From Oceanospirillaceae bacterium (lineage in GTDB: Bacteria; Pseudomonadota; Gammaproteobacteria; Pseudomonadales; Balneatricaceae): 64,000 nt of DNA. The notes under the pieces were generated by a model, which was not told the DNA's origin, searched no databases, and was given only the letters and a program-made list of their open reading frames with translations. Every line of letters starts with the position of its first letter. Position 1 is the first letter of the stretch. The translations under genes were made by a program, and so were the position numbers. The DNA lies in assembly GCA_013215445.1 (NCBI GenBank), contig JABSRA010000009.1, positions 1 through 64,000 of the forward strand, written 5' to 3'. Below, one piece after another: positions 46,009 through 64,000 of this stretch.

Positions 46009-46068
46009 GACTACTCACAAACCTATGCAGAATTACCGGCCTGCACAGTTGCACAGGCCTCGTTTAGT

Positions 46069-46914: not shown

Positions 46915-47049
46915 ACCTAACCTCAAAATGGGCCTCAGCGGCCCAGTGATAACACGTTTGAAACTCTCTTATCCAACCGCTAAAACTGCTCGATTATCCC
47001 GATAAAAAACGGCGAGTTGTTTCCTTTATTTCATTTCTTCTTTACTTTT

Positions 47050-47793
<744 letters not shown>

Positions 47794-47925
47794 TTAATCG
47801 CAGCATTTAAGCGCTGATCATTATTAACAAATGGTAGTATTTAGTGGGTGATGGGCATCGATAATACTGCAACTCTGCTCGGCATTACCCACACTTATAG
47901 CGGTTGCCCATACCTTTATGCTGGT

Positions 47926-48954
47926 TTATCCCCTGGCTGCTATCGGCGCATTGGGGTGTAACAGGTTTTTATCTTTTAGCTCTTGCCACAGCTCTGTCTT
48001 AATCTGCGACTTTAGCGTCGCACAATTGAGCATCACTTCTGTGGCAGATTGCCCCCCGGGAATCACACTGACCACACTGGCATGTAACATCGGGAACTGG
48101 ATCGCCGCCTGTGCTATAGACACCTGATAACTAAGACAAACCTTCTCTATAGCCGCCACTCTCTGCTTGATGTTAGCAGGTGCCAACTCGTAATTATACA
48201 TCGCATTTTTGATTGCCCCGGTCGCCAAAATACCAGAATTAAACGGCCCACCCAAGACGATACCTGCACCCTGCTTTTCACACAGCGGTAAAAAAGACTC
48301 CAGTGCTGCCTGCTCTAATAACGTATAGCGACCGGCCAGTAAAAACAGATCAAAATCGCCCAGCAGCGCCATCTTTTCACAGACTTGCCACTCGTTTACC
48401 CCAACCCCGATGGCGGCAATATCACCGTTTTTACGCAGTTCACAGAGGGCCTGATAACCGCCTTCCATCACCTCATCAACCCGTTGATCCGAGGCCTGTT
48501 GTGAGCCGTGGGTAAAGATATCAACATCGTGAATATACATAATATCTAAACGGTCTAATTTGAGCCGCTGTAAGCTCTGCTCAAACGAGCGCATCACTCC
48601 AGCGTAAGAGTAATCGTAGACAATTTTATTATGGGGGGTATTAACGAAGGCACCTGAATTTACTTCACTGGCGGCGCAAGGGACTAATAATTTTCCCACT
48701 TTAGTGGATATCTGATAGCTCTCTCGCGGCAAGTTTGCCAAGAAATCAGCGAGACGCATCTCGGATAAGCCATGACCGTAGTGAGGCGCGGTATCAAAAT
48801 AGCGAATACCACTACTCCACGCCGCCTCCAAGGTCTGCCTCGCCTGGACATCAGAGAGGGTCCGATATAAATTCCCCAGCGGTGCGCAACCAAAACCCAA
48901 CTCAGACAATTTTATTTCTTTCCCTCTCGAGGTGATAAATGTGTTCTGCTTCAT
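47926..48954 (-). CDS. Aldo/keto reductase, likely L-fucose (D-threo-aldose) 1-dehydrogenase
   Basis: A 342-residue aldo-keto reductase with the catalytic tetrad in FDTAPHYGHG (Asp, Tyr), STKVGKL (Lys) and MYIHDVD (His). It resembles L-fucose/L-galactose dehydrogenases and pyridoxal 4-dehydrogenase rather than classic reductases. In this cluster it should oxidise the aldose at C1 to the lactone, the first pathway step. Its ATG overlaps the stop of the ABC ATPase gene (ATGA), so it is part of the transporter operon. Confidence 0.8.
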   Translation of the reverse strand: MKQNTFITSRGKEIKLSELGFGCAPLGNLYRTLSDVQARQTLEAAWSSGIRYFDTAPHYGHGLSEMRLADFLANLPRESYQISTKVGKLLVPCAASEVNSGAFVNTPHNKIVYDYSYAGVMRSFEQSLQRLKLDRLDIMYIHDVDIFTHGSQQASDQRVDEVMEGGYQALCELRKNGDIAAIGVGVNEWQVCEKMALLGDFDLFLLAGRYTLLEQAALESFLPLCEKQGAGIVLGGPFNSGILATGAIKNAMYNYELAPANIKQRVAAIEKVCLSYQVSIAQAAIQFPMLHASVVSVIPGGQSATEVMLNCATLKSQIKTELWQELKDKNLLHPNAPIAARG

Positions 48955-50024
48955 ACTGCTTCACCTACTCTGAGGCGTAACTCTGAGTGTTTATCAAATA
49001 AATACACCCTGCTCGAGGTGATTTTAATACTCACTTTAGCACCCATTTGTGACTCGAAATCGGCATTCATTCTCACCACTATTTGCGCGGTTGCTCTCTC
49101 ATCCTCGATAGAGCAAGTCACAATGGTCTCATCCCCCGTCAGCTCGATAGAATATATCTCTGCACTGATCTGCCCACCTGCGTCGACAATGGTAATATCC
49201 TCGGGTCTAACGCCCAAGATTACCCCTGCTTGATCGGACATTTCAGCACAGTCATATTCACAGGCTTCACTGCGAAATACCCCCCCTTTAATCGCGCCGC
49301 GAATAAAATTCATCTGCGGAGAGCCGACAAAACTTGCCACAAACAAATTCGCCGGATTGTTGTAGATTTCACGCGGCGGTGCCAACTGCTGCACCACCCC
49401 CTGATTAATCACCGCCACTTTGTCGGCTAAGGTCATCGCTTCTATTTGATCGTGGGTAACATAGACAGTGGTCACGGCCAATTTCTTTTGTAAATGCTTT
49501 AGCTCTGCGCGCATCTGCGAGCGCAACTGCGCGTCTAAGTTAGATAACGGCTCATCCATCAAGAATAATTTAGGACGGCGCACCATGGCTCTGGCTAGCG
49601 CCACGCGCTGGCGCTGGCCCCCTGATAGTTGCTTTGGATAGCGCTGTAAGTAGTCTTCTAAGTGCACCGCTTTGGCTGCCTCTAATACCGCCTTCTCCCG
49701 CTCAGGCGTTGGCATTTTACGCATCAACAGAGGGTAGCCGATGTTTTCTGCCACACTCATGTGCGGGTAGAGCGCGTAGCTCTGAAAGACCATCGCGATA
49801 TCACGGTACTTAGGTAATACATTGGTGACTTCTTGCCCCTGGATATAGACCTCTCCAGCACTGGCAGTTTCTAACCCTGCGATCACCCGCAACAAGGTAG
49901 TTTTGCCACAACCTGAGGGGCCTAATAAGACTAAAAACTGCCCCTCTTCAATAGTTAGATCGACCCCTTTAACCACTTCGGTACTGCCGTAGCTCTTGCG
50001 AATCCCCGTTAGTTTTACGCTCAT
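48951..50024 (-). CDS. CUT1 sugar ABC transporter ATP-binding protein (UgpC/MsmK type)
   Basis: A 357-residue ATPase with Walker A GPSGCGKTT, signature LSGGQRQRVALARAM and Walker B LFLMDEPLSNLDAQL, followed by TOBE/OB regulatory domains (about 240-350). This is the MalK/UgpC/MsmK type. It is fourth in the operon after the binding protein and two permeases and overlaps the aldo-keto reductase gene by 4 bp, tying transport to catabolism. Substrate is inferred from neighbours as L-fucose or a similar aldose. Confidence 0.9.
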   Translation of the reverse strand: MSVKLTGIRKSYGSTEVVKGVDLTIEEGQFLVLLGPSGCGKTTLLRVIAGLETASAGEVYIQGQEVTNVLPKYRDIAMVFQSYALYPHMSVAENIGYPLLMRKMPTPEREKAVLEAAKAVHLEDYLQRYPKQLSGGQRQRVALARAMVRRPKLFLMDEPLSNLDAQLRSQMRAELKHLQKKLAVTTVYVTHDQIEAMTLADKVAVINQGVVQQLAPPREIYNNPANLFVASFVGSPQMNFIRGAIKGGVFRSEACEYDCAEMSDQAGVILGVRPEDITIVDAGGQISAEIYSIELTGDETIVTCSIEDERATAQIVVRMNADFESQMGAKVSIKITSSRVYLFDKHSELRLRVGEAV

Positions 50025-50108
50025 TTTCTAATTCCTTTCCATCATTATTCTTATAATGTGTAGTTATTCTTGTCGCTATCGCTCTTTAACTTTTTAACTG
50101 CGAAGCTA

Positions 50109-51161
50109 CTACCCTTTAACCGCCCCAGCCAACTGGCCTTTATTGATTAACTTACCAATAAAGCCCGCGGCGATTAAAACGGGGATGATCATCACCACAA
50201 TCAGCACTGACATATACCACCACTGCGGCCCGCGGGTGGCATTTTGTGCCGCCACCATTAACGGCATGGTCTGGGCATCGACCGTGGAGAGAAACAATGC
50301 CAGCAAATACTCGTTCCAGGAGAGAATTAAAATCAGCATGGTAGTCGCCGCTAAACCAGGTTTAGCCAGCGGCAGATAAATGGTCAAAAATACCCGCATC
50401 CGCGAGGCGCCATCCAGCATCGCACTCTCTTCTAACTCCACCGGAATTTTGGCAAAAAAGTCGCGCATTAACCACACGGCTATCGGCAAGTTGACCGCCA
50501 TATAAGTGACGATCAAGGCAAAGTGCGTGTCCAGCAAACCCAGTTGCTGAAACATAATGTAAATGGGTAATACTGAGACTACTGGCGGCATAATCCGCTG
50601 GGAGATAATCCAAAACAAAATATCATTGTTGCCGAGGGTACGGCTAAAATGGCGACTAAACGACAGTACAAAAATAACGAATAAGGCCGCGCCTATGCTC
50701 AGCGACAACTGCCACTGCATACCGATTGCCACCGTCAAATACACCACCAGCCCCACCGCACCAATAAAGCCTATAATGCTGCCAAGTTTGGGTTTGTACT
50801 CTATTCTAGTCAGTGCATAGGCCGACATAGAACCGATAAATACCGCCAGCACCGTACTGATCGAGGCAATAATGATCGAATTCAAATAGGGCCTGAGCGT
50901 ATCTTGCCCCAAATCGATAAAGATATACTTCCAGGCGTGCAACGAGGGTTCAAAATCGATAAAGGGAATGTAATAGGGCCCATCGGAAACGTGAATCGGC
51001 AGCTTAAACGAGGTGACGAACAGCCAGTACAGCGGAAACAACACCACAAAACTCCAGACAAACAGGATGCTGTAGGTAAATACTTTATTCAGCGGTGACA
51101 TCGACTGCAAATTTTTCGGTTCGCTAATTCTCTGCCACAGGCTTCTTGTTGCTAAACTCAT
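50109..51161 (-). CDS. CUT1 sugar ABC transporter permease (MalG type)
   Basis: A 350-residue permease, longer than MalG (about 296). The usual six-helix core includes SAYALTRI near its start, and the coupling loop is MLDGASRMRVFLTIYLPLAK. The extra length comes from two hydrophobic stretches (about 135-175) between TM2 and the core, which may add a helical hairpin. It starts 23 bp after the MalF-type gene. Confidence 0.87.
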   Translation of the reverse strand: MSLATRSLWQRISEPKNLQSMSPLNKVFTYSILFVWSFVVLFPLYWLFVTSFKLPIHVSDGPYYIPFIDFEPSLHAWKYIFIDLGQDTLRPYLNSIIIASISTVLAVFIGSMSAYALTRIEYKPKLGSIIGFIGAVGLVVYLTVAIGMQWQLSLSIGAALFVIFVLSFSRHFSRTLGNNDILFWIISQRIMPPVVSVLPIYIMFQQLGLLDTHFALIVTYMAVNLPIAVWLMRDFFAKIPVELEESAMLDGASRMRVFLTIYLPLAKPGLAATTMLILILSWNEYLLALFLSTVDAQTMPLMVAAQNATRGPQWWYMSVLIVVMIIPVLIAAGFIGKLINKGQLAGAVKG

Positions 51162-51184
51162 CTCTCTCTCCTAGGGTGCGCCTG

Positions 51185-52306
51185 TTATGCGCCTTTGGCC
51201 GCTGTGCGCTGACCGACAAAGTTAAAAAAGGAAACACATATCACCACTGCGACAAATAACAGCGAGTAGCCGACCGCTGCCGATCCGCCTAAGTCTTGGG
51301 TGCGCCAGGCGATAAAGGAATGTAATGTCATAGATTCTGTGGCGATGCCCGGTCCACCGTTGGTTAAAATATTCGGTAGATCAATAATTTTGAAGGCCTC
51401 AATTAAACGAATCAGTACCGCGGTCGCTGCCACAGCCGCTATCGATGGAAAGGTAATATCTTTAAAGATACGCCAGCTCCCGGCACCATCTAACTGCGCC
51501 GCCTCTACTTGCTCTTTGGGTTGATTTTCAATCGCCGCCAACAACACCATGAACAAAAACGGAATCCACTGCCAAGAGTCACCGATCAATACCACCCAGC
51601 GGGCCAGCCAGGCATCGGCCGCCCAGGAGAACTCCGCCAGCCCAAACATTGACCAAATAGGTGCAAAGGGCCCCTGCGACATATCCATCAACATTCTAAA
51701 CGCGTAGGCGATGCCCACTGGGGTGACCATAATAGGAATAAAAAAGGCCATGCGGAAAAAGTGTTTACCGCGAATTTTTTGCGCACATAACAGCGCCAGA
51801 CCCAGCGCGATCACAAACTGAATAGAGACTCCGACAAACACGTAAAACAGTGTCACCATTAAAGAGCCCGGATAACCACTGCCATTGAGCACACTAAAAG
51901 CCAGCATGGTTAACATCATAATGACTATAACAGTGATTGAACGTCCTATGGTGCCTATCACTGAGACAGTACCAGAGCGAAAGTAGCACCACAGCCAATA
52001 ACAAAAACTCAGGGCGAAAAAGCCGATAATCAGCCATTCCCAGAACAAGAACTCACCGAAAGTTCCCAGAAAATGATACTGCTGAGAACCTGAAAATAAT
52101 TTTTTGAAATTGCGTAGTCCGACATATTTCAGCTCGAAACCACCCGAGACTAATTTAAAGCGGGACAGCGCTAAATAAGCGGACAGCAACAGTGGATAAA
52201 CCGCTAAAAAAAGAATGATTAAAACAGTGGGTAGAATTAGTAATTGCGGCGTAAGCTGATCGATACGCTGCGCAAAACCCACCTTAGGTTGCTTGACCTC
52301 AGACAT
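51185..52306 (-). CDS. CUT1 sugar ABC transporter permease (MalF type)
   Basis: A 373-residue permease with the coupling loop QLDGAGSWRIFKDITFPSIA and the closing SLLFVAVVICVSFFNFVGQR. Two additional hydrophobic stretches (about 90-110 and 120-145) lie between TM1 and the core, mirroring the extra segment in the MalG-type partner. This pair may therefore form an unusual CUT1 channel. It is separated from the binding-protein gene by a hairpin and T-tract. Confidence 0.87.
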   Translation of the reverse strand: MSEVKQPKVGFAQRIDQLTPQLLILPTVLIILFLAVYPLLLSAYLALSRFKLVSGGFELKYVGLRNFKKLFSGSQQYHFLGTFGEFLFWEWLIIGFFALSFCYWLWCYFRSGTVSVIGTIGRSITVIVIMMLTMLAFSVLNGSGYPGSLMVTLFYVFVGVSIQFVIALGLALLCAQKIRGKHFFRMAFFIPIMVTPVGIAYAFRMLMDMSQGPFAPIWSMFGLAEFSWAADAWLARWVVLIGDSWQWIPFLFMVLLAAIENQPKEQVEAAQLDGAGSWRIFKDITFPSIAAVAATAVLIRLIEAFKIIDLPNILTNGGPGIATESMTLHSFIAWRTQDLGGSAAVGYSLLFVAVVICVSFFNFVGQRTAAKGA

Positions 52307-52334
52307 GGTTATCCTTTAAAAGTAGGGTGTAGTC

Positions 52335-52383
52335 AAAAAAAATAAAAAGCGTGCAGCCAACCTTAGAGACAGGCCAGCCACAC
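52335..52383 (-). terminator. Intra-operon terminator/attenuator after the sugar-binding protein gene
   Basis: On the minus strand GTGTGGCTGGCCT (52383-52371) pairs with AGGTTGGCTGCAC (52363-52351) over 13 bp, counting G-U pairs. A run of T (52348-52335, broken only by one A) follows. It begins 15 bp after the binding-protein stop. Partial termination here would give more binding protein than permease. Confidence 0.65.
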
Positions 52384-52397
52384 ACTGGGCAAGAGGG

Positions 52398-53903
52398 TTA
52401 CAGACCCAGAGTTGCCTTGTAGAGTTTCAACTGCTCTTCTTTACCAAGATCTTCATTGAGCTCATTCCAACCTTCTTCAATCGAAGACATGGTTTGATTA
52501 ACATCGATCTCACCGGCCAAGAAACGCGCGATAGCGGTATCTAACACCACTTGCTGGTAGTTTTGGTTCTTCGGAATACGCAGATCTAACATCATGTTAG
52601 GGCTATTGAGACTGTCTTTAATCGCCCCTAGGTAGTTTTCAGCGGCTTCTTTACTCATGCCCGACGCTAACCAACCTTGCATGTTGCTAAATTGTGACAG
52701 ACGGTAAGGATTAAAACCGGTGGCGCCGATGGTCACATCGACATTAGACTGAGCAGGTTGCGAGACATACGAGAAGTACTCGTAAGCGGCCTGCTTAACT
52801 TTATCATCCGCCGAGGCGTTAATTCCGCCAGACCAACCGCCAAAGGCAGCGTAAGGTGCGCGGTTAACGCCGTCCACAGCGTAGGGGCAAGTCTTAGTCG
52901 TACAAGTTTCTAGTTTGCCAGTCGCACGATTCAGTATTTTGGTAGAACCTGGCAACATTGCCGCGCCAACTTTATCGATGACTTTCGATGAAGCGGGATC
53001 TGCCGCTAACGGACCTACGTCACCCCAGTCAATGGTCAGTGCACAGCGCCCAGCGGTAAACAGACCTCGAGTATCGCCCACATCTAAGTTAATTTCGTCA
53101 GGCGGTGCATATTTGCTAGTTTCTTTGTAGATATGCAACGCGGCACCAAAAGCTTCATTATTCACCAGCGGCTGCATGTCTTTGGTATCAAAGAATGCCC
53201 CCTGCTTAGTCCCTTCACCTTGTAGGTAACCACCGGCAATCGACATCACTGCCCAATAGGCTTGAGCATTACGTTTTTTCGAGATACAAGAACCATAGTC
53301 GGGTTTGCCATCCCCATTCATGTCTTTACCATGCACCGCTTTGGCAATTGCCAGGTACTCGTCCCAAGTATTAGGTGGGGTTAGTCCCGCGGCTTTAAGC
53401 ACATCAGTACGGTAGTAAATCATGTGGAAATCGCCATCTAGCGTCAGTAGATAGTTCTTACCTTTATATTGGGTGGAGAAAGAGCGAAAGAAAGGACTGA
53501 TATCACTCTCTTCTAACGCTTCGTCTTGAGCGACATTGGCGGTAATGTCCTGCAGATAACCTGGCTCTGCATAATCGACCATCCACTGCGGGGCAAATAC
53601 AGCGGCATCAACACTGTTGGTACCCGTGGCAAAGTCGGTGAGTAATTTAGTGTATAGATCCGAAAATGGCACGGTAATGATATTGATAGTGGCGCCGGTT
53701 AACGCCTTAAATTCGGGGGCGTGACGCTGTAGCGGCTCGGCAATTTGCGGGCCGGTAAAAGTCATAACATTCACCGTGACACCGTCGAATTTCTTCGCCA
53801 CTGCGGTATTAGCACCGAGTGCCAGCACCATTGCGGAGGCCGCAGTGATACCACTTGCCAATTTAGTTAGCGTTAAACCTGAGGGTTTGCTGAATAATCT
53901 CAT
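52398..53903 (-). CDS. CUT1 sugar ABC transporter substrate-binding protein
   Basis: A 501-residue family-1 solute-binding protein, at the long end for this class (400-450 is common). The signal peptide spans about 1-36 (MVLALGANTAVAKK). The mature part shows VNVMTFTGPQIAEPLQRHAP, GDFHMIYYRTDVLKAAG, and a calcium-like loop GKDMNGDGKPDYG. A Cys pair in LETCTTKTCPYAVDG may form a disulfide. First gene of the operon, downstream of the GntR gene by 90 bp. The sugar cannot be read directly; L-fucose is inferred. Confidence 0.87.
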   Translation of the reverse strand: MRLFSKPSGLTLTKLASGITAASAMVLALGANTAVAKKFDGVTVNVMTFTGPQIAEPLQRHAPEFKALTGATINIITVPFSDLYTKLLTDFATGTNSVDAAVFAPQWMVDYAEPGYLQDITANVAQDEALEESDISPFFRSFSTQYKGKNYLLTLDGDFHMIYYRTDVLKAAGLTPPNTWDEYLAIAKAVHGKDMNGDGKPDYGSCISKKRNAQAYWAVMSIAGGYLQGEGTKQGAFFDTKDMQPLVNNEAFGAALHIYKETSKYAPPDEINLDVGDTRGLFTAGRCALTIDWGDVGPLAADPASSKVIDKVGAAMLPGSTKILNRATGKLETCTTKTCPYAVDGVNRAPYAAFGGWSGGINASADDKVKQAAYEYFSYVSQPAQSNVDVTIGATGFNPYRLSQFSNMQGWLASGMSKEAAENYLGAIKDSLNSPNMMLDLRIPKNQNYQQVVLDTAIARFLAGEIDVNQTMSSIEEGWNELNEDLGKEEQLKLYKATLGL

Positions 53904-53993
53904 CGTTTGTCGTCTCCATTGTTATATTTATTATGGGATTTACTTACCTTTACCGCCGATACCCATTAACCTAACGCACCAGTTTCATCGGGG

Positions 53994-54692
53994 TTATTTG
54001 TCCGCAAACAACTCGGGCTGTTCACTGAACATAATATCGATAAGAGCAACCACTTTGCTCACGTGTTGGGTCATGGCTAACGCTGCACCCTCCCCATCTG
54101 AATTTTTAATCGCATCTAAAATTGCCTTGTGCTCAAGATAGGTATCCTCTGGCCTACCTGGTGCTGACAACTGCATTTTACGCACCCTTGCCAACTGCGC
54201 ATACGCACCCTCAATCACCCGTTTGAGCCGGCTAAAACCGGTAAATTCACAGAGTAACTGGTGAAACTCTTCATCCAACTGATAAAAACTAGGGTAATCT
54301 TTATCCTCCACCGACGCTTTTTGATAGCGCACGTTACGCGTCAGTAGCAGCAACATCTCAGCACTGTGGTGCTCGGCCACTTGCCGAGCAATCGCCACTT
54401 CCAGCGCCTGGCGAATGAAGGCACTCTCTTTAACGTCACTGATGTGAAGTTTAGTGACGTAAGTACCGCGTTGCGGAAATACTTCTACCAACCGATCTTC
54501 GGTCAATTTGGCGATTGCCTCACTCACCGGAGTGCGTGATACCCCCAGTGCCTTGGCCACCTCTTCTTTGATGATGGCCATTCCCGGGGTTAAATTTTGA
54601 TCGACAATTGCGTCCAATAAAATTTCATACACTTGTCCAGAAAGTGCTTTGCTGCGGTCTATTTTGGCGTTCTGCAAAAACCTAAAAGGCAT
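53994..54692 (-). CDS. GntR-family regulator with FCD domain
   Basis: A 232-residue regulator. The N-terminal winged helix (about 12-78) holds EEVAKALGVSRTPVSEAIAK and FPQRGTYVTKL. The C-terminal FCD domain has the metal-binding set, including LDEEFHQLLCEF and a later YLEHKAILDAI. FCD regulators usually sense sugar acids or hydroxy acids. It lies upstream of the CUT1 operon on the same strand and diverges from the UxaA-type gene. A palindrome 25 bp above its start suggests autoregulation and control of both arms. GGGAAG precedes the ATG. Confidence 0.88.
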   Translation of the reverse strand: MPFRFLQNAKIDRSKALSGQVYEILLDAIVDQNLTPGMAIIKEEVAKALGVSRTPVSEAIAKLTEDRLVEVFPQRGTYVTKLHISDVKESAFIRQALEVAIARQVAEHHSAEMLLLLTRNVRYQKASVEDKDYPSFYQLDEEFHQLLCEFTGFSRLKRVIEGAYAQLARVRKMQLSAPGRPEDTYLEHKAILDAIKNSDGEGAALAMTQHVSKVVALIDIMFSEQPELFADK

Positions 54693-54716
54693 ATTATATA
54701 TCTTCCCGTGAACTAG

Positions 54717-54728
54717 CTAACATGTTAG
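54717..54728. promoter_or_regulatory. Candidate GntR operator
   Basis: CTAACATGTTAG is a perfect 12-bp palindrome placed 25 bp upstream of the GntR start and followed by GTGTGCTAGCAT, which repeats part of the GCTA motif. Size fits FCD-type GntR sites. Confidence 0.5.
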
Positions 54729-54810
54729 TGTGCTAGCATACATTAAGTCAAGGCTATTTTTTAAGCAGTTTTATGGGCTTATTTCCAGGCAGTATTATTA
54801 CATTTATAAT

Positions 54811-55008
54811 CCTAGATTCGACAGTTTGGTGCGAAACAGCTGGGTAATAAATGAGTGCACTTAGCAACAGAGAAAATGTAGTGGTCACCTTGCTGGTTTT
54901 ATGCAGGGATGCATTTATTTAGCGAATGCATGGATGCATAAGAGCCTGATGAGCATATTTTCTAGCTTTCTAGCTGCTTGATTATCGAATTGACTGTCGA
55001 ATCTTGCC
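54811..55008. mobile_element. About 198-bp degenerate MITE-like element related to 42653-42815
   Basis: The left end CCTAGATTCGACAGTTTG matches the other elements. The right end, read inward, keeps AAGATTCGACAGTCA but its last bases are altered (TTGCC in place of TAGG). The interior shares GTGCA, TAGCAA, AGAAAAT and GTGGTCACCTT in the same order with the element at 42653. The flanks ATAAT and CTAAT agree at four of five bases. It occupies most of the gap between the GntR and UxaA-type genes. Confidence 0.6.
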
Positions 55009-55098
55009 TAATGAGTACTCGCCGGCAATACTTCTCTACATGGACGCAGAGCTAGAGATCTACCGCTAGCGCCAGAAAAACAATGATAAGAGGCAATA

Positions 55099-56619
55099 AT
55101 GATGGCAGGCAATACCCTACAGCTGCATGACCAGGATAATGTAGTTGTGGCACTCAGTGCTTTAGGGCTGGGAGCGAGCATCGATAAAGCGCGTAACATA
55201 TCGACCCAGAGCAGCATCCCCAAAGGCCACAAGGTAGCCCTCTCGGCCATTGAGAAAGGCATGCCAATCCGCAAATACAATCAGGTCATAGGTTTTGCCA
55301 CCACCGCCATCAGTGCAGGGGCTCACGTCCACGTACACAACTGTGAAATGGGAGAACTAGAGCTAGACTACTCCATTGGTAGCAACGCCACTCCCGTATC
55401 CATGGTGCCAGCCGCCGAGCGACGCACCTTCATGGGTTTTTTGCGCGATAACGGCAAAGTCGGCACGCGCAACTATATAGGCTTAATCGCCTCGGTTAAC
55501 TGCTCGGCAACCGTGGTGCGCTTTATCGCCAATCACTTCAACCACTCAAACTTATTAGACGCCTACCCCAACATCGATGGTGTGGTGGCGATACATCATG
55601 GCAGCGGTTGCGGTATGGCCAACAAGGGGGATGGCTTTGATAACTTACAACGCGCGCTAGTTGGATACAGTCAACACCCTAATTTTGCCGCGGTGCTACT
55701 GGTAGGTTTAGGCTGTGAAGTGATGCAACTTGGCGAACTCAAGGCCACAGACCCGCAGGCGGTGATCCAAAAAATGACCATTCAAGCCCAGGGTGGCACC
55801 TCAAAAACGATTGCCGCGGGTATTGACAGAATTGGCAAAATGCTCGCTCAGGCGAATGCGATTCAACGCCAACCCGTGCCGGTAGCTGAGTTAACTCTCG
55901 CCCTGCAGTGTGGCGGTTCTGACAGTTATTCAGGCATCACCGCAAACCCGGCCCTGGGCAGAGCAGCCGACTTATTGATCGCTCAGGGAGGGACTGCAAT
56001 ATTATCCGAGACCCCGGAAATATTCGGCGCTGAGCACTTACTTACCGCCCGTGCCGCCAACCCTGCCACCGCCAAAAAAATCATAAAACGCATTCAATGG
56101 TGGCGCGATTACACCGCCAGAAATGGCGGCAACATGAATAACAACCCCTCTCCCGGTAATATAGCCGGCGGCCTCACCACTATATTAGAGAAATCCCTCG
56201 GCGCCGTCGCCAAGGGTGGCAGCACCCCTCTGCAAGATTTTTATCTGTACGCGGAGCCCATCACCAAAAAGGGTTTTGTGTTCATGGATAGCCCGGGATT
56301 TGATCCCTGCTCTGTCACCGGACAAGTAGCCTCTGGTGCCAATATTGTCTGCTTTACTACCGGGCGGGGCTCTGCCTTTGGCTTTAAACCCGTGCCCTCG
56401 ATAAAGCTGGCCACCAACAGTGAAATGTATTACTTCCAAGAGGAAGATATGGACATTAACTGTGGCGATATCATCGATGAACAAGTGACTATTGACCAAA
56501 AAGCGCAACAAATTTTCGAGTACATCATCAAGACGGCCTCCGGAGAGCAATCTAAAAGTGAGGCGCTAGGTTATGGGGACAGTGAATTTGTCCCCTGGCA
56601 AATCGGCGCAGTGATGTAA
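55099..56619 (+). CDS. UxaA/GarD-family sugar-acid dehydratase, possibly L-fuconate dehydratase
   Basis: A 506-residue full-length altronate/galactarate dehydratase-family enzyme. It has an N-terminal SAF domain (about 1-95), followed by GFLRDNGKVGTRNYI, HHGSGCGMANKGDG, LQCGGSDSYSGITANPALG and DSPGFDPCSVTGQVASGANI. The conserved cysteines are those expected for the iron site. In the L-fucose locus of Campylobacter jejuni, genes of this family occupy the dehydratase slot. With the FAH, SDR and AKR genes here, L-fuconate (or a related aldonate) is a reasonable substrate. D-altronate remains possible, but no uronate genes are near. AGAGG precedes the double ATG. Confidence 0.82.
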   Translation: MMAGNTLQLHDQDNVVVALSALGLGASIDKARNISTQSSIPKGHKVALSAIEKGMPIRKYNQVIGFATTAISAGAHVHVHNCEMGELELDYSIGSNATPVSMVPAAERRTFMGFLRDNGKVGTRNYIGLIASVNCSATVVRFIANHFNHSNLLDAYPNIDGVVAIHHGSGCGMANKGDGFDNLQRALVGYSQHPNFAAVLLVGLGCEVMQLGELKATDPQAVIQKMTIQAQGGTSKTIAAGIDRIGKMLAQANAIQRQPVPVAELTLALQCGGSDSYSGITANPALGRAADLLIAQGGTAILSETPEIFGAEHLLTARAANPATAKKIIKRIQWWRDYTARNGGNMNNNPSPGNIAGGLTTILEKSLGAVAKGGSTPLQDFYLYAEPITKKGFVFMDSPGFDPCSVTGQVASGANIVCFTTGRGSAFGFKPVPSIKLATNSEMYYFQEEDMDINCGDIIDEQVTIDQKAQQIFEYIIKTASGEQSKSEALGYGDSEFVPWQIGAVM

Positions 56620-56820
56620 TCTGCGAGTTCAGGCAACTTAGGGAAGTAGGCTCAATAGCTTCGACCCTACCGCGCTAAACCATCGTTGAATAGCCGCAAA
56701 GCACAGACAAATTCGCTCCACTTGGAGTTGATATTTTGCTGGCCCCACCTTTTTTCACCGCGTTATGCTAAAGTTCAGAGCATAATTATTTTATTTTTTA
56801 CAAATACTTAGGGGGATATA

Positions 56821-57828
56821 ATGGGAAAAATCTTAAACTGGGGCATTCTCAGTAGTGCCAAAATTGCCCGTAAACAGGTTGTTCCAGCAATGCAGCAGAG
56901 TCCGCTGCTAAAGGTGTTGGCAATCGCCTCGCGCAGTCAGCAAAAAGCGCAAGTAGTCGCCGATGAATTACAAATCCCCAGGGCCTACGCCAGTTACGAG
57001 CAACTGATTGAGGACCCAGACATCGATGTTATTTACAATCCGCTTCCCAACCACTTGCACGTACCGCTCACCATTGCCGCACTGCAAGCCGGTAAACATG
57101 TGCTCTGTGAAAAACCCTTGGCCCTCACCGCCGCCGAAGCTCAGCAATTAGTTGAGGTGTGTGCGCAGACCGGCAAGTTAGTAGAAGAGGCCTTTATGGT
57201 GCGCTCCAATCCCCAGTGGCAGTGGGTTCGCGAGCAAGTTAAACAACAGAGCATCGGTAAATTGTGCGCTATTCAAGGGGCGTTTAGCTACTTTAATGAT
57301 GATGCTAATAATATTCGCAACCAAGCCGACATTGGCGGCGGCGGTATCTATGATATCGGCTGTTACCTAATCAACACCTCGCGCTTTGTCACCGGTGAAG
57401 AACCCTGCAAAGTCACCGCCGTGATCGATCACGATCCCAACACCCACACCGACCGGTTGGCCTCTGCTATTATGCTTTTCCCCAGCGGCGTGCAGATGAC
57501 CTGGCTGTGCTCTACTCAGTTGGTGCCCTACCAGAGAGTCAATTTTTTGGGCACCACCGGACGCATTGAAGTTAAGATTCCCTTCAACGCCCCCAATGAC
57601 AGTGAAAATATCGTCTACATTGATGATGGCACCGATTTAACCGGCGCAAATTATCAGCGCCAAACATTTCCGGTGATCGATCAATACCAATTGCAGGCGG
57701 AAAATTTTTGCGCCGCGATTAATCAGCAGCGCGCGCAAAGTAATCCACTGGAGGGAGCTATCGCCAATATGCGGGTGATAGATGCCATCTTTAAAGCGGC
57801 CAAAACCGGCCAGTGGATTGATATTTAA
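56821..57828 (+). CDS. Gfo/Idh/MocA-family oxidoreductase
   Basis: A 335-residue NAD(P)-dependent oxidoreductase. The Rossmann start is WGILSSAKIARKQVVPAM, and the family motif is LCEKPLALTA with the catalytic Lys. IGGGGIYDIGCYLINTSRFV is typical of the dihydrodiol/D-xylose 1-dehydrogenase subgroup. It follows the UxaA-type gene on the same strand by 201 bp, so it could oxidise an aldose or inositol-like sugar within the same regulon. Substrate not determinable. AGGGGGA precedes the ATG. Confidence 0.85.
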   Translation: MGKILNWGILSSAKIARKQVVPAMQQSPLLKVLAIASRSQQKAQVVADELQIPRAYASYEQLIEDPDIDVIYNPLPNHLHVPLTIAALQAGKHVLCEKPLALTAAEAQQLVEVCAQTGKLVEEAFMVRSNPQWQWVREQVKQQSIGKLCAIQGAFSYFNDDANNIRNQADIGGGGIYDIGCYLINTSRFVTGEEPCKVTAVIDHDPNTHTDRLASAIMLFPSGVQMTWLCSTQLVPYQRVNFLGTTGRIEVKIPFNAPNDSENIVYIDDGTDLTGANYQRQTFPVIDQYQLQAENFCAAINQQRAQSNPLEGAIANMRVIDAIFKAAKTGQWIDI

Positions 57829-57937: not shown

Positions 57938-58369
57938 TTAGCCCGCAGGATAATTTGATAATTCCAGACAAGAAATGGTTTTTTCAATCCCCTCTATCTC
58001 TCGTATATCGTCGACCAATTGATCTAATTCACAACTTGCCTCAACTGTGATTTCAATCATTAAATCATAGATGCCGCTGACAGATTTAATCGAACTGATC
58101 TGCGTAATTTTCTGTAATTCTCTAATCACCCGCCGCGATACACCAGCGCGAAGATTGATCAACATTTGCGCTTTTAAGAGGCGTCTTTGGTACTGCTGAT
58201 CAAACTCAATGGTAAACTTTTTAATCACCTTGCGTCGCACCAGCGCGTCAATCCTATTTTGCACCGTGGTTCTAGAGACATTGAGTTTTTTACCGAGCGA
58301 GACAATAGATTCGCGGGCATTATTTTGTAAGAGGGCAATTAATTGCCTATCTCTCGCATCCAATTCCAT
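57938..58369 (-). CDS. Lrp/AsnC-family regulator
   Basis: A 143-residue Lrp-type regulator with helix-turn-helix LDARDRQLIALLQNNARES and SLGKKLNVSRTTVQNRIDAL, and a C-terminal RAM domain with SVSGIYDLMIEI for amino-acid binding. It is divergent from lysA with a 247-bp gap, so lysine or another amino acid is a plausible effector. GAGGAAGG precedes the ATG. The gap shows no lysine riboswitch and no clear dyad. Confidence 0.88.
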   Translation of the reverse strand: MELDARDRQLIALLQNNARESIVSLGKKLNVSRTTVQNRIDALVRRKVIKKFTIEFDQQYQRRLLKAQMLINLRAGVSRRVIRELQKITQISSIKSVSGIYDLMIEITVEASCELDQLVDDIREIEGIEKTISCLELSNYPAG

Positions 58370-58616: not shown

Positions 58617-59885
58617 ATGCCACAGATTATTTACCACAACGGGACCATGCAGATCGACCATGTTTCGATAGAGGCGCTTGCGAGCCGTTACCCCACCCCT
58701 TTTTACTGTTATAGCGCCAGCGCAATTCGCCAGCAGTATTTAGCCTTTGCCGATGCCTTTGCCGATTTACCCGCGCTGATTTGCTACGCGATCAAAGCCA
58801 ACTCTAATCAGGCGATACTGACCCTCTTGGCCAAACTGGGAGCGGGGGCAGATGTCGTTTCTGAGGGCGAGCTGCGCCGCGCATTGGCAGCGGGCATTCC
58901 CGCCGATAAAATTGTCTTCTCTGGTGTGGCTAAAACCGCCACTGAAATTCGCTTTGCACTGTCGAAAAACATCCTCTGTTTTAATGTCGAGTCCATCACC
59001 GAACTCAGGCAGATATCTGCATTAGCTAGCGCCAACCAACAGACGGCTAAGGTTTCAATGAGAATTAACCCGGATGTGGATGCGGGCACTCACGCGAAGA
59101 TATCCACCGGCAAGCGCGAAAACAAATTTGGAATTCCCTTCGATTATGCACTGCAAGCCTATCAATTGGCCGCAACACTGCCCGGTATTACCATTGTCGG
59201 TATCGATATGCACATCGGCAGCCAAATTAGTAAAGTCAGCGCTTTTGATGAGGCGATGCAACGCATCATGGAGTTGATCAAACAGCTTCAGGAATTGGGG
59301 ATTAACCTTGAACATGTCGATGTCGGCGGTGGCCTAGGCGTTACCTATACTGACGATGATCCGTCGGAGTTAACCCTATTGGCAGAATATTCGAGAGTCA
59401 TCCACAAATACGCCACCGCGTTAAATTGCCGAATAATCTTTGAACCCGGGCGTTTTATCATCGCCAATGCCGGCATCTTAGTGACAGAGGTGATCCAAGT
59501 TAAACCCGTCCAGGATAAGACTTTTGTGATGATAGATGCGGCGATGAACGATTTAATTCGCCCAACCCTCTACGAGGCTTGGCACAAAATTAGTCCCGCT
59601 AAACAAGCCGCGCCAGATGCCTTGAGCCAGCCTGTCGACATCGTCGGGCCGGTCTGCGAATCGGGTGATTATATGGCGCAAAACCGCCCGTTAACGACCG
59701 TTGTGGTTGGCGATTTACTGGTGATACACTCGGTGGGCGCCTACTCAGCGGTCGCTTCAAACACCTATAATAGCCGACGCTTGATTGCCGAAGTACTGGT
59801 TGATGGCGAGCGCGATCAACTGATTCGCCCCAGCCCCAGCTACCGACAGCTCATTGAGCTAGACTCTGTGCCCGATTGGCTATAA
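58617..59885 (+). CDS. lysA: Diaminopimelate decarboxylase
   Basis: Decarboxylates meso-diaminopimelate to L-lysine with PLP. The 422-residue alanine-racemase-fold protein has PLP-lysine Lys60 in CYAIKANSN, IDMHIGSQIS, VDVGGGLGVTY, IFEPGRFIIANAG and GPVCESGDYMA with the catalytic Cys. The C-terminus (AEVLVDGERDQLIRPSPSYR, ending LDSVPDWL) is of the kind I associate with alphaproteobacterial LysA, which hints at transfer. A second, diverged version of the last 34 codons lies immediately downstream. Confidence 0.93.
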   Translation: MPQIIYHNGTMQIDHVSIEALASRYPTPFYCYSASAIRQQYLAFADAFADLPALICYAIKANSNQAILTLLAKLGAGADVVSEGELRRALAAGIPADKIVFSGVAKTATEIRFALSKNILCFNVESITELRQISALASANQQTAKVSMRINPDVDAGTHAKISTGKRENKFGIPFDYALQAYQLAATLPGITIVGIDMHIGSQISKVSAFDEAMQRIMELIKQLQELGINLEHVDVGGGLGVTYTDDDPSELTLLAEYSRVIHKYATALNCRIIFEPGRFIIANAGILVTEVIQVKPVQDKTFVMIDAAMNDLIRPTLYEAWHKISPAKQAAPDALSQPVDIVGPVCESGDYMAQNRPLTTVVVGDLLVIHSVGAYSAVASNTYNSRRLIAEVLVDGERDQLIRPSPSYRQLIELDSVPDWL

Positions 59886-59899
59886 AGCACAAACATGTA

Positions 59900-60001
59900 A
59901 TTGCCGAAGTACTGGTCGATGGCGAGCGCGATCAACTGATTCACCCCAGCCCCAGTTATCAGCAACTGATGGAATTGGATCGAGTACCCGACTGGTTATA
60001 A
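59900..60001 (+). pseudogene. Orphan second lysA 3' end (34 codons)
   Basis: This 102-bp stretch repeats the last 102 bp of lysA (59784-59885) with about 19 differences by my count (roughly 81% identity) and no gap. It ends with its own in-frame stop, encoding IAEVLVDGERDQLIHPSPSY and a tail of QQLMELDRVPDWL. Differences are concentrated in the last 46 bases, many at third codon positions, so it evolved as coding sequence before being orphaned. It has no start. Confidence 0.85.
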
Positions 60002-60017
60002 ACCGCTGAACTTGGGT

Positions 60018-60043
60018 TGCGGCCACTTAGAGCAGTGGCCGCA
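60018..60043. terminator. Hairpin between convergent genes
   Basis: Perfect 10-bp G+C-rich arms TGCGGCCACT (60018-60027) and AGTGGCCGCA (60034-60043) with a 6-base loop, between the lysA tail and the convergent MFS gene. There is no T-tract, so termination strength is uncertain. Confidence 0.5.
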
Positions 60044-60081
60044 GAGTTGTCCACAAGCTGCTTCGAAATAATGCCTGTGGG

Positions 60082-61269
60082 CTAAATTCTCACACTGCTG
60101 GGTGTTGTCTGGCGGGTATATCGATTGGCGATCAACAGTAATATACCGGGCACCAGCAATAACATCGCCAGCCAGTTGCTGTTCTCCCAACCGATAGCAA
60201 AAAACAACGCACCGGCGGAAAACGCACCGATGGTATTCAGTACCGCCACTGCCGATTCATTAATACCCTGCAGTTTATGTCTATCTCCCTTGAGCGAGGT
60301 AACCATAGCGCTACCGCCCACATAGAGCATATTCCAACCCAAGCCTATGCCGATTAAGGCCGTCAATATACCATAGTAACCACTGCTGTAAATAGCCACC
60401 AGCATCGCCGCCAACATCATCATATAACCGGCAAATATCACCGCCTGCGCACCAACTCTAGCGATCACTTTACCCATAAATAATGAAGGCACAAACATCG
60501 CCACCACATGACACTGAATCACAAACATAATATCGGCGAATTCAACCCCCTGCGCATTCAATACCATCGACGACTGCATCATCAGCAGCCCCATCAACAT
60601 AAAACCGAACCCTGAGGCGTAGATAGAGACAAACAGCGGCAAACTCAGTATTTTGTGATGATCGCCGCTCGACTCAGTTTCTACCACAGCACTTTCAAGC
60701 GTCTCCGCTGGCTGCTCTTTGGGCACCAACATCAATATCACCATCAATACCATTGCGATCACTACGAAGGCTAAATAGCTGCCGCTAAAGGCATAATCTT
60801 CAAAGAAAAGGCGGCCATTTTTGGCGATCAGCGGCCCGATGAACGCCGCCACTATGCCACCGAGTGTAACAATTGACAGTACCTTGGCCTTTTCACTGTC
60901 TCGCACCCCATCAATAGCGGCAAACCTAAAAAAGGCGAAGGCACTCAGGCTCACCCCAAAGGAGATATGGGCGATCACATTGATGCTAAAAGAATGCCAA
61001 TAAATAGACAGCGCCCCCAAACCACCACCGAGCGCCAAGGTTAGTGCGCCCAGATAAAAGATAGGCTTGCGGCCAAAGCGTTTCATCGACATTGAGAGCA
61101 GGTAAGAGCAGAAGATAATCGCGGCAAATTGCGCCCCATAAGACAAAGTCGACAAACTGGCCACTGGAGCCAACTCTTTACCGACCATCGCCGAGATAGA
61201 GACGGTGATTACCGCACTGGTAAGTGCCAGTGCTTGGGCAGCACTGTAAAGCCATGTTTGAATACGCAT
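60082..61269 (-). CDS. MFS transporter
   Basis: A 395-residue, 12-helix major-facilitator protein. Motif A is degenerate (SMKRFGRKPIFYLGA between helices 2 and 3), and a short hydrophilic loop with acidic residues (about 185-215) separates the halves. It starts 13 bp after the racemase gene on the same strand, so the two form an operon. A MocR-type regulator is divergent. Export or uptake of an amino acid handled by the racemase is the simplest idea, but sequence alone does not give a substrate. Confidence 0.83.
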   Translation of the reverse strand: MRIQTWLYSAAQALALTSAVITVSISAMVGKELAPVASLSTLSYGAQFAAIIFCSYLLSMSMKRFGRKPIFYLGALTLALGGGLGALSIYWHSFSINVIAHISFGVSLSAFAFFRFAAIDGVRDSEKAKVLSIVTLGGIVAAFIGPLIAKNGRLFFEDYAFSGSYLAFVVIAMVLMVILMLVPKEQPAETLESAVVETESSGDHHKILSLPLFVSIYASGFGFMLMGLLMMQSSMVLNAQGVEFADIMFVIQCHVVAMFVPSLFMGKVIARVGAQAVIFAGYMMMLAAMLVAIYSSGYYGILTALIGIGLGWNMLYVGGSAMVTSLKGDRHKLQGINESAVAVLNTIGAFSAGALFFAIGWENSNWLAMLLLVPGILLLIANRYTRQTTPSSVRI

Positions 61270-61282
61270 TCTCTTCCCTCTT

Positions 61283-61978
61283 TTAATCTGTCAGTGCCGC
61301 ACTGATGGCAGCACTGGCGTGAATCTTAGTGGTATCGTACAAAGGCACTGCAGTGTGCGATTGATTAATTAATAAGGCAATTTCAGTGCAACCCAAAATC
61401 ACCGCTTGGGCACCTTGTTGAAAAAGGTCCTCGACAATATCGAGATATATCTGACGCGATGTCTGGTTAATCTCGCCCAGGCAAAGTTGTGAATAAATAA
61501 TATCGTGCACCGACTGTCGTTGCTGGGCATTGGGCACTAACACCTCGATAGCAAACTGTTCACTGAGCCGGCCTTTATAAAAATCTTGCTCCATGGTGAA
61601 TGCCGTACCCAACAGTCCGACTTTAGTGATGTTATCAGCTTGTAACTGTCTAGCCGTGGCATCGGCAATGTGTAGCAGCGGGATATCTATTTGCGCTTGG
61701 ATTTGCTCGGCAACTTTGTGCATGGTATTGGTACAAATCAATAAAAAGTCAGCGCCAGCGGCCTGCACATTTTTAGCCCCTATCGTGAGAATATCAGCGG
61801 TCTTAGGCCAATCACCTAGGTGTTGCAGCGCTTCAATCTCGGCAAAGTCGACACTGACCATCGCGATTTTAGCGGAATGCAAACCACCGAGTTCCGCTTT
61901 AATACCAAGATTGATCTCCCGGTAGTAACTGAGTGTTGACTCCCAACTCATGCCGCCAAGTAAGCCTATGGTTTTCAT
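61283..61978 (-). CDS. Aspartate/glutamate racemase family protein (YgeA/RacX-like)
   Basis: A 231-residue racemase-superfamily protein starting MKTIGLLGGMSWESTLSYYR. In ordinary Asp/Glu racemases two Cys act as acid and base. Here the first is Thr83 in CTNTMH and the second is Cys197 in LGCTEIALL. This is the Thr83/Cys197 pair that I recall for the E. coli enzyme EcL-DER (YgeA), at the same numbering, so it is likely a broad-specificity amino-acid racemase rather than a cell-wall glutamate racemase. It leads a two-gene operon with an MFS transporter and is divergent from a MocR-type gene. Confidence 0.85.
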   Translation of the reverse strand: MKTIGLLGGMSWESTLSYYREINLGIKAELGGLHSAKIAMVSVDFAEIEALQHLGDWPKTADILTIGAKNVQAAGADFLLICTNTMHKVAEQIQAQIDIPLLHIADATARQLQADNITKVGLLGTAFTMEQDFYKGRLSEQFAIEVLVPNAQQRQSVHDIIYSQLCLGEINQTSRQIYLDIVEDLFQQGAQAVILGCTEIALLINQSHTAVPLYDTTKIHASAAISAALTD

Positions 61979-62024
61979 CGATAACCGCCTTATCTAGTTC
62001 ATTGCCATCGAGTGTCACACAAGC

Positions 62025-62056
62025 TATTGTATGACACAATAATTTTATTGTATGAC
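62025..62056. promoter_or_regulatory. Direct repeat, candidate MocR operator
   Basis: TATTGTATGAC occurs exactly twice, at 62025-62035 and 62046-62056, start to start 21 bp apart, which is two helical turns. It lies in the 112-bp gap between the racemase-MFS operon and the divergent MocR gene. MocR-type regulators such as GabR and PdxR are known to bind direct repeats. Confidence 0.65.
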
Positions 62057-62090
62057 CTACAATTTAACCATTTTCCGCAGAGGTTGATCG

Positions 62091-63413
62091 ATGTGGCTAC
62101 CCCAAATAAACGCCGTTAAAATAGGCGCACAAGCTCTGGCGCAAGCCATCGAAAAGGCTATCGCAGACCAGATATTAGTGGTCGGTGAAAGACTGCCGCC
62201 ACAGCGCATTTTGGCCTATAAATTGGGGGTAAACCCCACCACTGTCTCACGCGCCTACCGCCGCGCCGCCGAAAAAGGTTTAGTGGGTGGTCAAATTGGC
62301 CGCGGCACCTACGTACTGGCACAGAGTAATGTGGCACTATTCACGCGCTGCCTGGCACAGCAACAGCAGGGCGTGATCGACCTATCGATCAACAAGCTAG
62401 AGTGCGACCCACAACTATTAGCCATCAATAAAGCCATCACCCGCGCCAACCTCTTTCTGGATGATGGCAGCTACTACGAGTACATAGGCAAGAGCTTAAT
62501 CGAGCGCTACCAACGCGCCATCAGCCAATGGCTAGCCAGTGCTCGTGATATTCAGTTTGAGCCATCACAAATACTGGCGTTGCCCAGTTGCCAATACGCC
62601 ATCCATTTTATCTTCAACCATCAAATGACTCGCGGTGATGTGCTGATTGTCGAGCAGTATACCGCCCCTGGGATTATCGTCGCCGCCAAACAGCATGGCC
62701 TGCGTCTGTTTAGCTGTCAGTGTGACGAGCAGGGACTGATACCAGCGGCACTGGATGCTATTATCAAACAAACTGGCAGCCGCACCTTAATTACCGTGCC
62801 CTCAAATCAATCACCGATGGGCACGACTCAATCTGAGCAGCGCCGCCAAGCATTGGCCAACATCATCATCAAGCATGATCTATTAGTAATAGAAGAAGAT
62901 ATTTACGGCATGTTCGCCGCACCCGCCCCGCTGGCAAAATACGCCCCACAGCACTGTTTAATGCTGTCGGGCTTTAGCAAGTGCCTAAGTGGTGGGCACA
63001 AGGCCTCATTTATCGCCTCCAAGCACCCGCTACTGAAAAAATTATCCAAACACGTTATCGAGACTATCTGGCTGGTATCTTCAAGCGCCGCCAGTCATAT
63101 CATTACCGCCATCGAAAACGGCTACTTGGATGATGCCATCAAATTAGTCGCCGATTGCAACGCTGAGAAAAGTCATATTTTTGGTAAAATAATGGATTTA
63201 TCGCTCAATGCGCAAAGTCCTCACCACTGGATAGCCAGTTCTAATGATTTTATTCAACAGGCGGAAAATGCCGGGGTGATACTGGCGCACTCCGACCACT
63301 TTAAGGTCGATAACAAAAGTGACCAAGTACACTACCGGATCGGGGTGAATGGCTTGAGCGCAGACCAAGTACGCCAGGCGGCAATCATCTTGGCGGGGAT
63401 AAAGAGGGGATAG
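62091..63413 (+). CDS. MocR-type regulator (GntR helix-turn-helix fused to aminotransferase-like domain)
   Basis: A 440-residue fusion. The N-terminal GntR winged helix (about 10-78) holds ERLPPQRILAYKLGVNPTTV and IGRGTYV. The C-terminal fold-type-I aminotransferase domain has SNQSPMGTTQS, EEDIYGMF and the PLP-lysine Lys297 in SGFSKCLSGGHK. The usual S-x-x-x-P-G-x-R phosphate-binding end is altered to SGGHKAS, with Lys where Arg is normal. AGAGG precedes the ATG. It is divergent from the racemase-MFS operon, with a paired direct repeat between, so it probably controls that operon in response to an amino acid-PLP adduct. Confidence 0.88.
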   Translation: MWLPQINAVKIGAQALAQAIEKAIADQILVVGERLPPQRILAYKLGVNPTTVSRAYRRAAEKGLVGGQIGRGTYVLAQSNVALFTRCLAQQQQGVIDLSINKLECDPQLLAINKAITRANLFLDDGSYYEYIGKSLIERYQRAISQWLASARDIQFEPSQILALPSCQYAIHFIFNHQMTRGDVLIVEQYTAPGIIVAAKQHGLRLFSCQCDEQGLIPAALDAIIKQTGSRTLITVPSNQSPMGTTQSEQRRQALANIIIKHDLLVIEEDIYGMFAAPAPLAKYAPQHCLMLSGFSKCLSGGHKASFIASKHPLLKKLSKHVIETIWLVSSSAASHIITAIENGYLDDAIKLVADCNAEKSHIFGKIMDLSLNAQSPHHWIASSNDFIQQAENAGVILAHSDHFKVDNKSDQVHYRIGVNGLSADQVRQAAIILAGIKRG

Positions 63414-63457
63414 GCGTTGGCTAGAAGACTCATGACAAAAGACCAACGACCAATCAC

Positions 63458-64000
63458 TCAGTGTTGCTTTAACCAATCGGTGATGGTCTGAGCGGTTCCC
63501 TCAGGATCTTCTAGCGGGAACAAGTGCCCACCCGCCAATACTCTATAATCCATGCCAGCGGTTTTGGATAATCTAGCCGCAAAAGGCTGGCTGGAGAATT
63601 CGCTCTCTTGTGCGGTTAAATACAAGCCTGGCATTGCCAGTGGTTGACGGTAGCGCCACAGGTCATCGGGGGCGGTACGAAATAACGACAGCTCAGTCTC
63701 TAAATCGATAGCCAGTGTCACTTGTCCATCATCAGTATCCACCAACCCATGCTGGATATACGCCTGAAAAGATTGTTCAGTAAAATCTTTGAACAGACGC
63801 TTACCTCGTAATTGTGCATAAGCTTGCTCGCGACTAGCAAAATGGGTACGGCGGTTTTTGCTGGCACCGGCGGGGGTGAAACGATCGCTAAAGCCCAATT
63901 TTTTAGACAGCCACCACACCGAATTTTGCCAGCCGTTAATGACCGGGGGGTCCAGTAAAATCAGGTGACTATAGAGATCAGGGCGCTTTTGCGCCAGCAG
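63458..64000 (-). CDS. Alpha/beta hydrolase, partial (C-terminal part)
   Basis: The frame is open to the right edge of the window, so the N-terminus is missing. The visible 180 codons begin LLAQKRPDLYSHLILLDPPV, which is the strand after the nucleophile elbow in the alpha/beta-hydrolase fold, and end with the presumed catalytic-His segment AGGHLFPLEDPEGT. The nucleophile Ser lies outside the window. A GTG at 63919 could be mistaken for a start but is internal. Substrate unknown. It converges on the MocR gene. Confidence 0.8.
   Translation of the reverse strand: MLAQKRPDLYSHLILLDPPVINGWQNSVWWLSKKLGFSDRFTPAGASKNRRTHFASREQAYAQLRGKRLFKDFTEQSFQAYIQHGLVDTDDGQVTLAIDLETELSLFRTAPDDLWRYRQPLAMPGLYLTAQESEFSSQPFAARLSKTAGMDYRVLAGGHLFPLEDPEGTAQTITDWLKQH

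Follow-up and report, generated by a model that had tools for sequence, protein, structure and literature searches.

A predicted MocR regulon that joins an amino-acid racemase and an MFS transporter through one conserved operator

A MocR-type regulator, an amino-acid racemase and an MFS transporter, encoded together in a 64-kb window (the whole stretch of DNA that was analysed), make up a well-supported predicted regulon, in which the racemase and transporter would be tied to the regulator by one conserved operator. The gene content, the operator, the co-occurrence of these elements among relatives, and the operator at a racemase gene unlinked to the regulator can all be read directly from the DNA. 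We favour, with moderate confidence, the interpretation that the regulon would provide relief from an amino acid, which would be sensed, exported, inverted and proofread. It is the composition of this regulon that is new, not its kind.

The regulator (440 aa; 62091..63413, plus strand) contains the two domains that define the MocR subfamily, Pfam GntR at residues 14-75 and Aminotran_1_2 at residues 95-343. Divergent from it, on the minus strand, lie the genes for the racemase (231 aa; 61283..61978; Pfam Asp_Glu_race, PF01177, and TIGR00035) and the transporter (395 aa; 60082..61269; Pfam MFS_1). These domains agree with the gene calls of the original prediction, which had placed the unit at 61979-63413; that interval holds the regulator and the intergenic gap, but the racemase and transporter fall outside it, and the full unit spans 60082-63413. 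The gap between the regulator and racemase genes is exactly 112 bp (61979-62090). Since the racemase and MFS genes run in the same direction with 13 bases between them, they are probably co-transcribed, with the transporter, a putative exporter, as the second gene of a probable operon. A promoter scan of 59850-63500 returned six sigma-70-like sites, compared with 4.9 expected from shuffles; the minus strand of the gap had none.

The gap carries the 11-bp direct repeat that had drawn attention to the locus; TATTGTATGAC occurs on the plus strand at 62025..62035 and again at 62046..62056, 21 bp start to start. A chance origin of this repeat was rejected, as 20,000 dinucleotide shuffles of the gap produced an exact 11-bp direct repeat within 40 bp in 17 cases and the site is conserved in all ten MocR upstream regions. 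Comparable 11-bp direct repeats were found at two other places in the window (12140 and 58743), and the double repeat itself occurs once in the window's genome (4.6 Mb, 180 contigs). As a regulatory site the repeat was correctly proposed insofar as it belongs to the likely operator, but it is only a portion of a longer conserved element, a predicted operator of 37 bp (62026..62062, plus strand) with two direct boxes and an inverted TACAA box. The consensus from the upstream regions of the ten MocR orthologues (10/10) is ATTGYATGACWCAATN6ATTGYATGACMTACAA; in one of them, G161, the spacer is 1 bp shorter, which accounts for the 13 mismatches scored for that site. Two direct boxes with one inverted box are reported to be the commonest structure of MocR operators (PMC5320631), and direct and/or inverted repeats in a divergent promoter are what the subfamily would lead one to expect. 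No further place in the 64-kb window matched the operator with nine or fewer mismatches.

What we rate as the strongest sequence evidence for a regulon is the operator at an unlinked racemase, because it is independent of gene adjacency. The four genomes of the sister genus that encode the MocR have their racemase gene elsewhere than beside it, and in 4/4 the operator was present at that unlinked gene, with 2-4 mismatches, 45-47 bp before the start; at the window racemase the distance is 47 bp, and the orientation of the operator relative to the gene is the same. The gene on the opposite side of the sister-genus operator encodes a LysE-type translocator (ORFs in 4/4; Pfam LysE in the two tested). 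Six racemase genes of relatives without the own-type MocR (five from the sister genus, one from the window's own genus) gave background matches only, with 13-15 mismatches. The background windows were drawn from loci holding real sites, and 26 of 1,500 matched with at most four mismatches while all others had at least ten; a full scan of the ten loci used in this racemase test revealed no place with nine or fewer mismatches beyond the sites already named. Accidental adjacency of the three genes was rejected on account of the operator at the unlinked sister-genus racemase. Together with the clustering of the trio in five of seven own-genus genomes, this 4/4 result upholds the original view that regulator, racemase and transporter are one regulatory unit.

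Among 116 genomes of the family, the MocR orthologue (threshold E 1e-60), the MFS orthologue (threshold at least 55% identity) and the operator were found in an identical set of ten. At that identity MFS orthologues were present only in these ten MocR genomes, the next best match being 34%, and the operator pattern with up to three mismatches was recovered from 10/116 genomes, compared with 0/116 for a reversed control pattern; in G161 the site that satisfied this limit is the one at the racemase. Within the own genus, six of seven genomes encode the MocR (G250 lacks it), and the trio forms one cluster in five (G000, G253, G252, G254 and G255, the last with MFS before racemase). The trio is thus conserved outside the genome in which it was noticed. 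A sixth may also be whole, since the MocR contig of G251 ends just after the racemase and its MFS gene is close to the end of a different contig. In the sister genus the MFS gene is divergent from MocR and is followed by a gene for a PLP enzyme of Cys/Met metabolism (domain scans on G149 and G160), whose ORFs are intact in G149, G150 and G160 and whose frames are broken in G161; the closest solved structures to its product are cystathionine gamma-lyases. A class-wide MocR search at E 1e-60 gave 1/369 genomes, that of the window alone, so the unit is not widespread, and among the genomes searched the own-type unit is confined to two genera of one family. No match of at least 60% identity was found in 188 plasmid records, the 20 matches listed having 28-31%. 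A search for related loci yielded five, of which L028 (Mycolicibacterium, 27% identity) was left out of further comparison. Separately, G253 carries a second gene of the Asp/Glu-racemase family about 4 kb downstream of MocR (L038:13302-13997; 41% identity).

Two further genes accompany the unit in the window, a second lysA-type decarboxylase gene (58617..59885, plus strand; TIGR01048 above cut-off), whose membership of the regulon is putative at most, and, divergent from it, a gene for an Lrp/AsnC-family regulator (57938..58369, minus strand; assigned by Pfam). Both are conserved neighbours. The lysA paralogue is present in 6/6 own-genus genomes with MocR and absent from G250, which is without MocR; another lysA lies on contig 79 of the window genome. 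An Lrp/AsnC gene occupies the equivalent place in G253, G252 and G254. The paralogue and Lrp adjoin the unit in 4/6 genomes; the paralogue is on a different contig from MocR in G251 and G255, and in G251 adjoins the MFS gene. This arrangement, and the reported catabolic nature of the MocR regulons for GABA, taurine and ectoine (PMC5320631), speak for catabolic uptake, in which the transporter would import a D- or L-amino acid, the racemase would convert it and the product would feed metabolism, with the LysA-type decarboxylase and Lrp taking part. We nevertheless consider catabolic uptake quite unlikely: the six own-genus genomes with MocR have the operator pattern at one site each, with none at lysA or lrp, and the partners found elsewhere are LysE-type translocators and a tRNA-editing protein, neither of which is catabolic. 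The LysE-type translocators found here we take to belong to an exporter family. Two minor features lie nearby. Immediately after the lysA paralogue (59885-59998), a stretch of 38 codons repeats the 3' end of lysA, with 76% identity to residues 385-422, and is probably what remains of a tandem duplication; before lrp, at 45265-57828, lies a carbohydrate-type cluster comprising an ABC transporter, dehydrogenases, an FCD-type GntR and an altronate-dehydratase-like gene, names that were taken from reading the ORFs.

By its sequence the racemase is of the YgeA/EcL-DER type. It combines the Asp/Glu racemase fold (PF01177; alignment with 5ell and 5hqt) with the Thr83/Cys197 pair, which had been predicted and proved invariant in 7/7 aligned racemases; its best PDB matches were 3ojc, 5hqt and 5ell, and it scored above the cut-off for the amino acid racemase model TIGR00035, and below it for NF007569 (PRK10200; 309.5 bits, cut-off 417). 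Racemases of this type are reported to be PLP-independent, YgeA being described as a homoserine racemase and EcL-DER as active on L- but not D-Asp/Glu (PMC12838360). The transporter gave only weak matches to solved structures (closest VMAT, E 0.003), and its AF2 model was poor (pLDDT 51.7). The last property of EcL-DER would suit the production and release of D-amino acids, whereby MocR would sense an excess of the L-form, the racemase would make the D-form and the transporter would secrete it to act as a signal or to modulate the cell wall, no detoxification being involved; so would the constant pairing of the racemase with a transporter, MFS in the window genus and LysE-type in the sister genus. 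Against this, the window-type racemase is widespread without operator control, being present in 71 of 116 family genomes where the operator is present in 10; flanks were inspected for 30 racemase loci from the 71 genomes, plus ten further regions, and six of the 30 lie at an own-type MocR locus and one (L149) beside a different MocR-like ORF. Release of D-amino acids would also leave unexplained the AlaX gene in the operon of some relatives, and the MocR-AlaX-LysE loci where no racemase was seen, and we regard it as unlikely. The management of D-amino acids, as originally proposed, stands as one option, but the AlaX, LysE-type and Cys/Met-lyase-like partners favour a role in relieving the cell of an L-amino acid that is toxic or in excess.

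An AlaX-type gene opens the operon in 4/6 own-genus genomes with MocR (G252, G254, G251 and G255). Three of the proteins scored 201.9-210.9 bits with the AlaXM model, below its cut-off of 300, and the HxxxH and CxxxH residues, which presumably form the zinc site, are kept, H102/H106 and C200/H204 being invariant in four aligned rows. The window genome and G253 gave no AlaX match at E 1e-30, so proofreading would not be part of the unit in the window genome. AlaX was found in 16/116 family genomes, and in nine of these a MocR is divergently adjacent to it: four are of the own type and five (G197, G215, G219, G212 and G213) are of another type, with 25-29% identity to the window MocR. Six of the rest have other neighbours, and the upstream side of the remaining one (G239) is hidden by a contig end. 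A sample of the order contained AlaX in 10 of 145 genomes, six of them with a divergently adjacent MocR (G001, G130, G007, G111, G048 and G071) and four with no divergent MocR at AlaX (G046, G128, G005 and G061). A LysE gene lies downstream in five of these six MocR-AlaX loci, the contig ending in the sixth, and a PhzF-type gene is found between AlaX and LysE in G007, G048 and G111 (the last by tblastn, 75% identity). Window-type racemases occur at other-clade loci in G213 (60%, behind AlaX) and G103 (48%, behind LysE and a cupin gene), and at L007, L009, L011, L012, L016 and L023 the gene divergent from the other-clade MocR is LysE, with no AlaX between. In a sample of the class, AlaX was present in 24/350 genomes; inspection of all 24 loci, with flanks of about 1.5 kb or less at contig ends, revealed MocR beside it in one, co-directional. 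AlaX also adjoins an apparent threonine-aldolase gene (L099, G420) and, in genus g5 (L094-L096), apparent CysD and kynureninase genes; these names come from ORF starts.

In a midpoint-rooted MocR tree of 36 rows the window clade (100/100, branch 1.92) was separate from the AlaX-linked clade; L012 (G074) has no row in this tree, and G161, whose MocR contains a stop codon, was left out of both alignment and tree. Because the window clade sits on a long branch, the partners of the two clades need not be one inherited module. A bolder extension, which we put forward only tentatively, is a three-layer resistance to one mischarged amino acid, which would be pumped out, flipped to a chirality unusable by synthetases and stripped from tRNA(Ala); it would have been assembled at least twice, in two distant MocR lineages, and its layers (AlaX, PhzF, lyase, MFS or LysE) would have been lost or swapped between species. 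The gaps of the other clade contain ATTGTATGGGTACAAT-like sites, which were read by eye and for which no chance baseline was computed; as these fit the EnuR operator ATTGTnnnnnnACAAT, EnuR-like half-sites appear to be common to both MocR clades.

EnuR/EhuR, the regulator of ectoine catabolism, is also among the described systems nearest to that of the window MocR, for which EhuR was the best NCBIfam model (242.7 bits, below the cut-off of 480), and the reported EnuR operator (PMC8739950) has ATTGT/ACAAT half-sites in common with the window operator. The two systems differ in that the divergent genes of the window encode a racemase and an MFS transporter rather than ectoine import and catabolism, in that the window operator combines two direct boxes, set 21 bp apart, with an inverted one, and in the replacement of the PLP-pocket Asp and Asn in the window MocR. 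When the pocket was compared with 27 other MocR rows, Lys297 and Arg416 were kept in the window clade, with Glu in place of Asp and Ser in place of Asn; the roles of these residues, and of the phosphate Arg, we take to be those of fold-type-I enzymes. A substituted phosphate-binding motif had been part of the original prediction, and SGGHKAS is indeed present, but the substitution was overstated: SGGH is invariant in 9/9 aligned orthologues, and since the next residue is K in six own-genus rows and R in three sister-genus rows, we read the change as a conservative Arg/Lys swap. Nor is a change at the presumed phosphate-contact Arg unique, as the MocRs of G111 and G048 have His at this position. 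Departures from the Glu-Asp-Asp motif are reported for the MocR group YczR (PMC4944035). The AF2 model of the window MocR was weak (pLDDT 65.7).

PLP metabolism is reported as the commonest assigned function of MocR proteins, and PdxQ regulons include LysE/YggA transporters (PMC5320631), as might be expected if the window MocR answered to PLP alone, in the manner of PdxR or PdxQ, with the racemase and transporter as incidental members of a regulon for vitamin B6 control. Such control is highly improbable here: the PdxR model scored 137.7 against a cut-off of 320, no B6 gene was recognised among the ORF starts read in ten neighbourhoods, and the racemase is of a type reported to need no PLP (PMC12838360).

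Relief from an amino acid, the reading that we prefer, would bring together DNA binding, the sensing of PLP and a ligand, a direction of export, a substrate and a sign of regulation, all of which we infer. MocR would bind the 37-bp operator in the divergent promoter and, with PLP, would recognise the amino acid through an external aldimine, thereby switching the operon and altering transcription of the racemase, the transporter and itself. The MFS protein most likely exports the amino acid, and in relatives LysE-type translocators would replace it or act beside it; the racemase most likely inverts the tRNA-chargeable L-form to the D-form, or balances both. Operons of sister species add AlaX or the PLP lyase-like enzyme, and AlaX, where present in those species, would clear tRNA(Ala) of the mischarged amino acid. 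Several findings weigh against this reading: the unit is narrowly distributed, its PLP pocket is altered, the window genome has no AlaX match, AlaX is seldom linked to MocR in the class sample, and the racemase is often found outside this control. Our best guess at the ligand class, made by analogy, is small amino acids open to mischarging by AlaRS or to racemisation by YgeA-type enzymes (serine, homoserine or some non-protein analogue). The homoserine racemase activity reported for YgeA, and the clearing of mischarged tRNA(Ala) expected of AlaX, would suit a hydroxy- or non-protein amino acid of small size. MocR regulators are common and few have known ligands; in this case the sharply defined operator, which recurs wherever else in the genome the racemase has moved, allows the ligand to be sought by simple induction and binding tests. 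The regulon would also set YgeA and other broad racemases in a regulated context, with a single amino-acid sensor linking export and the inversion of chirality to the proofreading of tRNA.

The locus had been thought to match no described system. Within the open-access literature searched, no title or abstract start described a MocR regulon that includes AlaX or a racemase; the word "racemase" appears twice in the main text of PMC5320631, never as a regulon member, and "tRNA" nowhere in it. MocR control of amino-acid or drug exporters has, however, already been described, with NorG reported to control efflux pumps including NorB (PMC6677901), GvgR associated with LysE exporters of toxic vinylglycine (PMC8067088), and PdxQ with LysE/YggA (PMC5320631). 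The window system departs from these three by including a broad racemase of a PLP-independent type, joined in relatives by AlaX, and by having an MFS transporter instead of LysE at its own locus. CtdA, a canavanine editing factor reportedly encoded beside a canavanine degradation operon (PMC10018355), likewise sets a stand-alone tRNA editing protein beside enzymes that rid the cell of a toxic amino acid, to which the Cys/Met-lyase-like gene after MFS in the sister genus may be compared; CtdA is of the B3/4 editing family rather than AlaX, the present system has MocR, racemase and transporter, and the window genome has no AlaX. DdlR of Brevibacillus, described as a MocR regulator of D-Ala-D-Ala ligase, shares a target related to D-amino acids; that target is a ligase, not a racemase, and the account of DdlR in PMC6677901 names no transporter.

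One further observation concerns the position of the operator. In G255 and the sister genus (L042, L043, L044 and L045) it ends one base before the aligned MocR start codon, an arrangement that suggests direct autoregulation and, for MocR, either a start codon upstream of the aligned one or a message without a leader.
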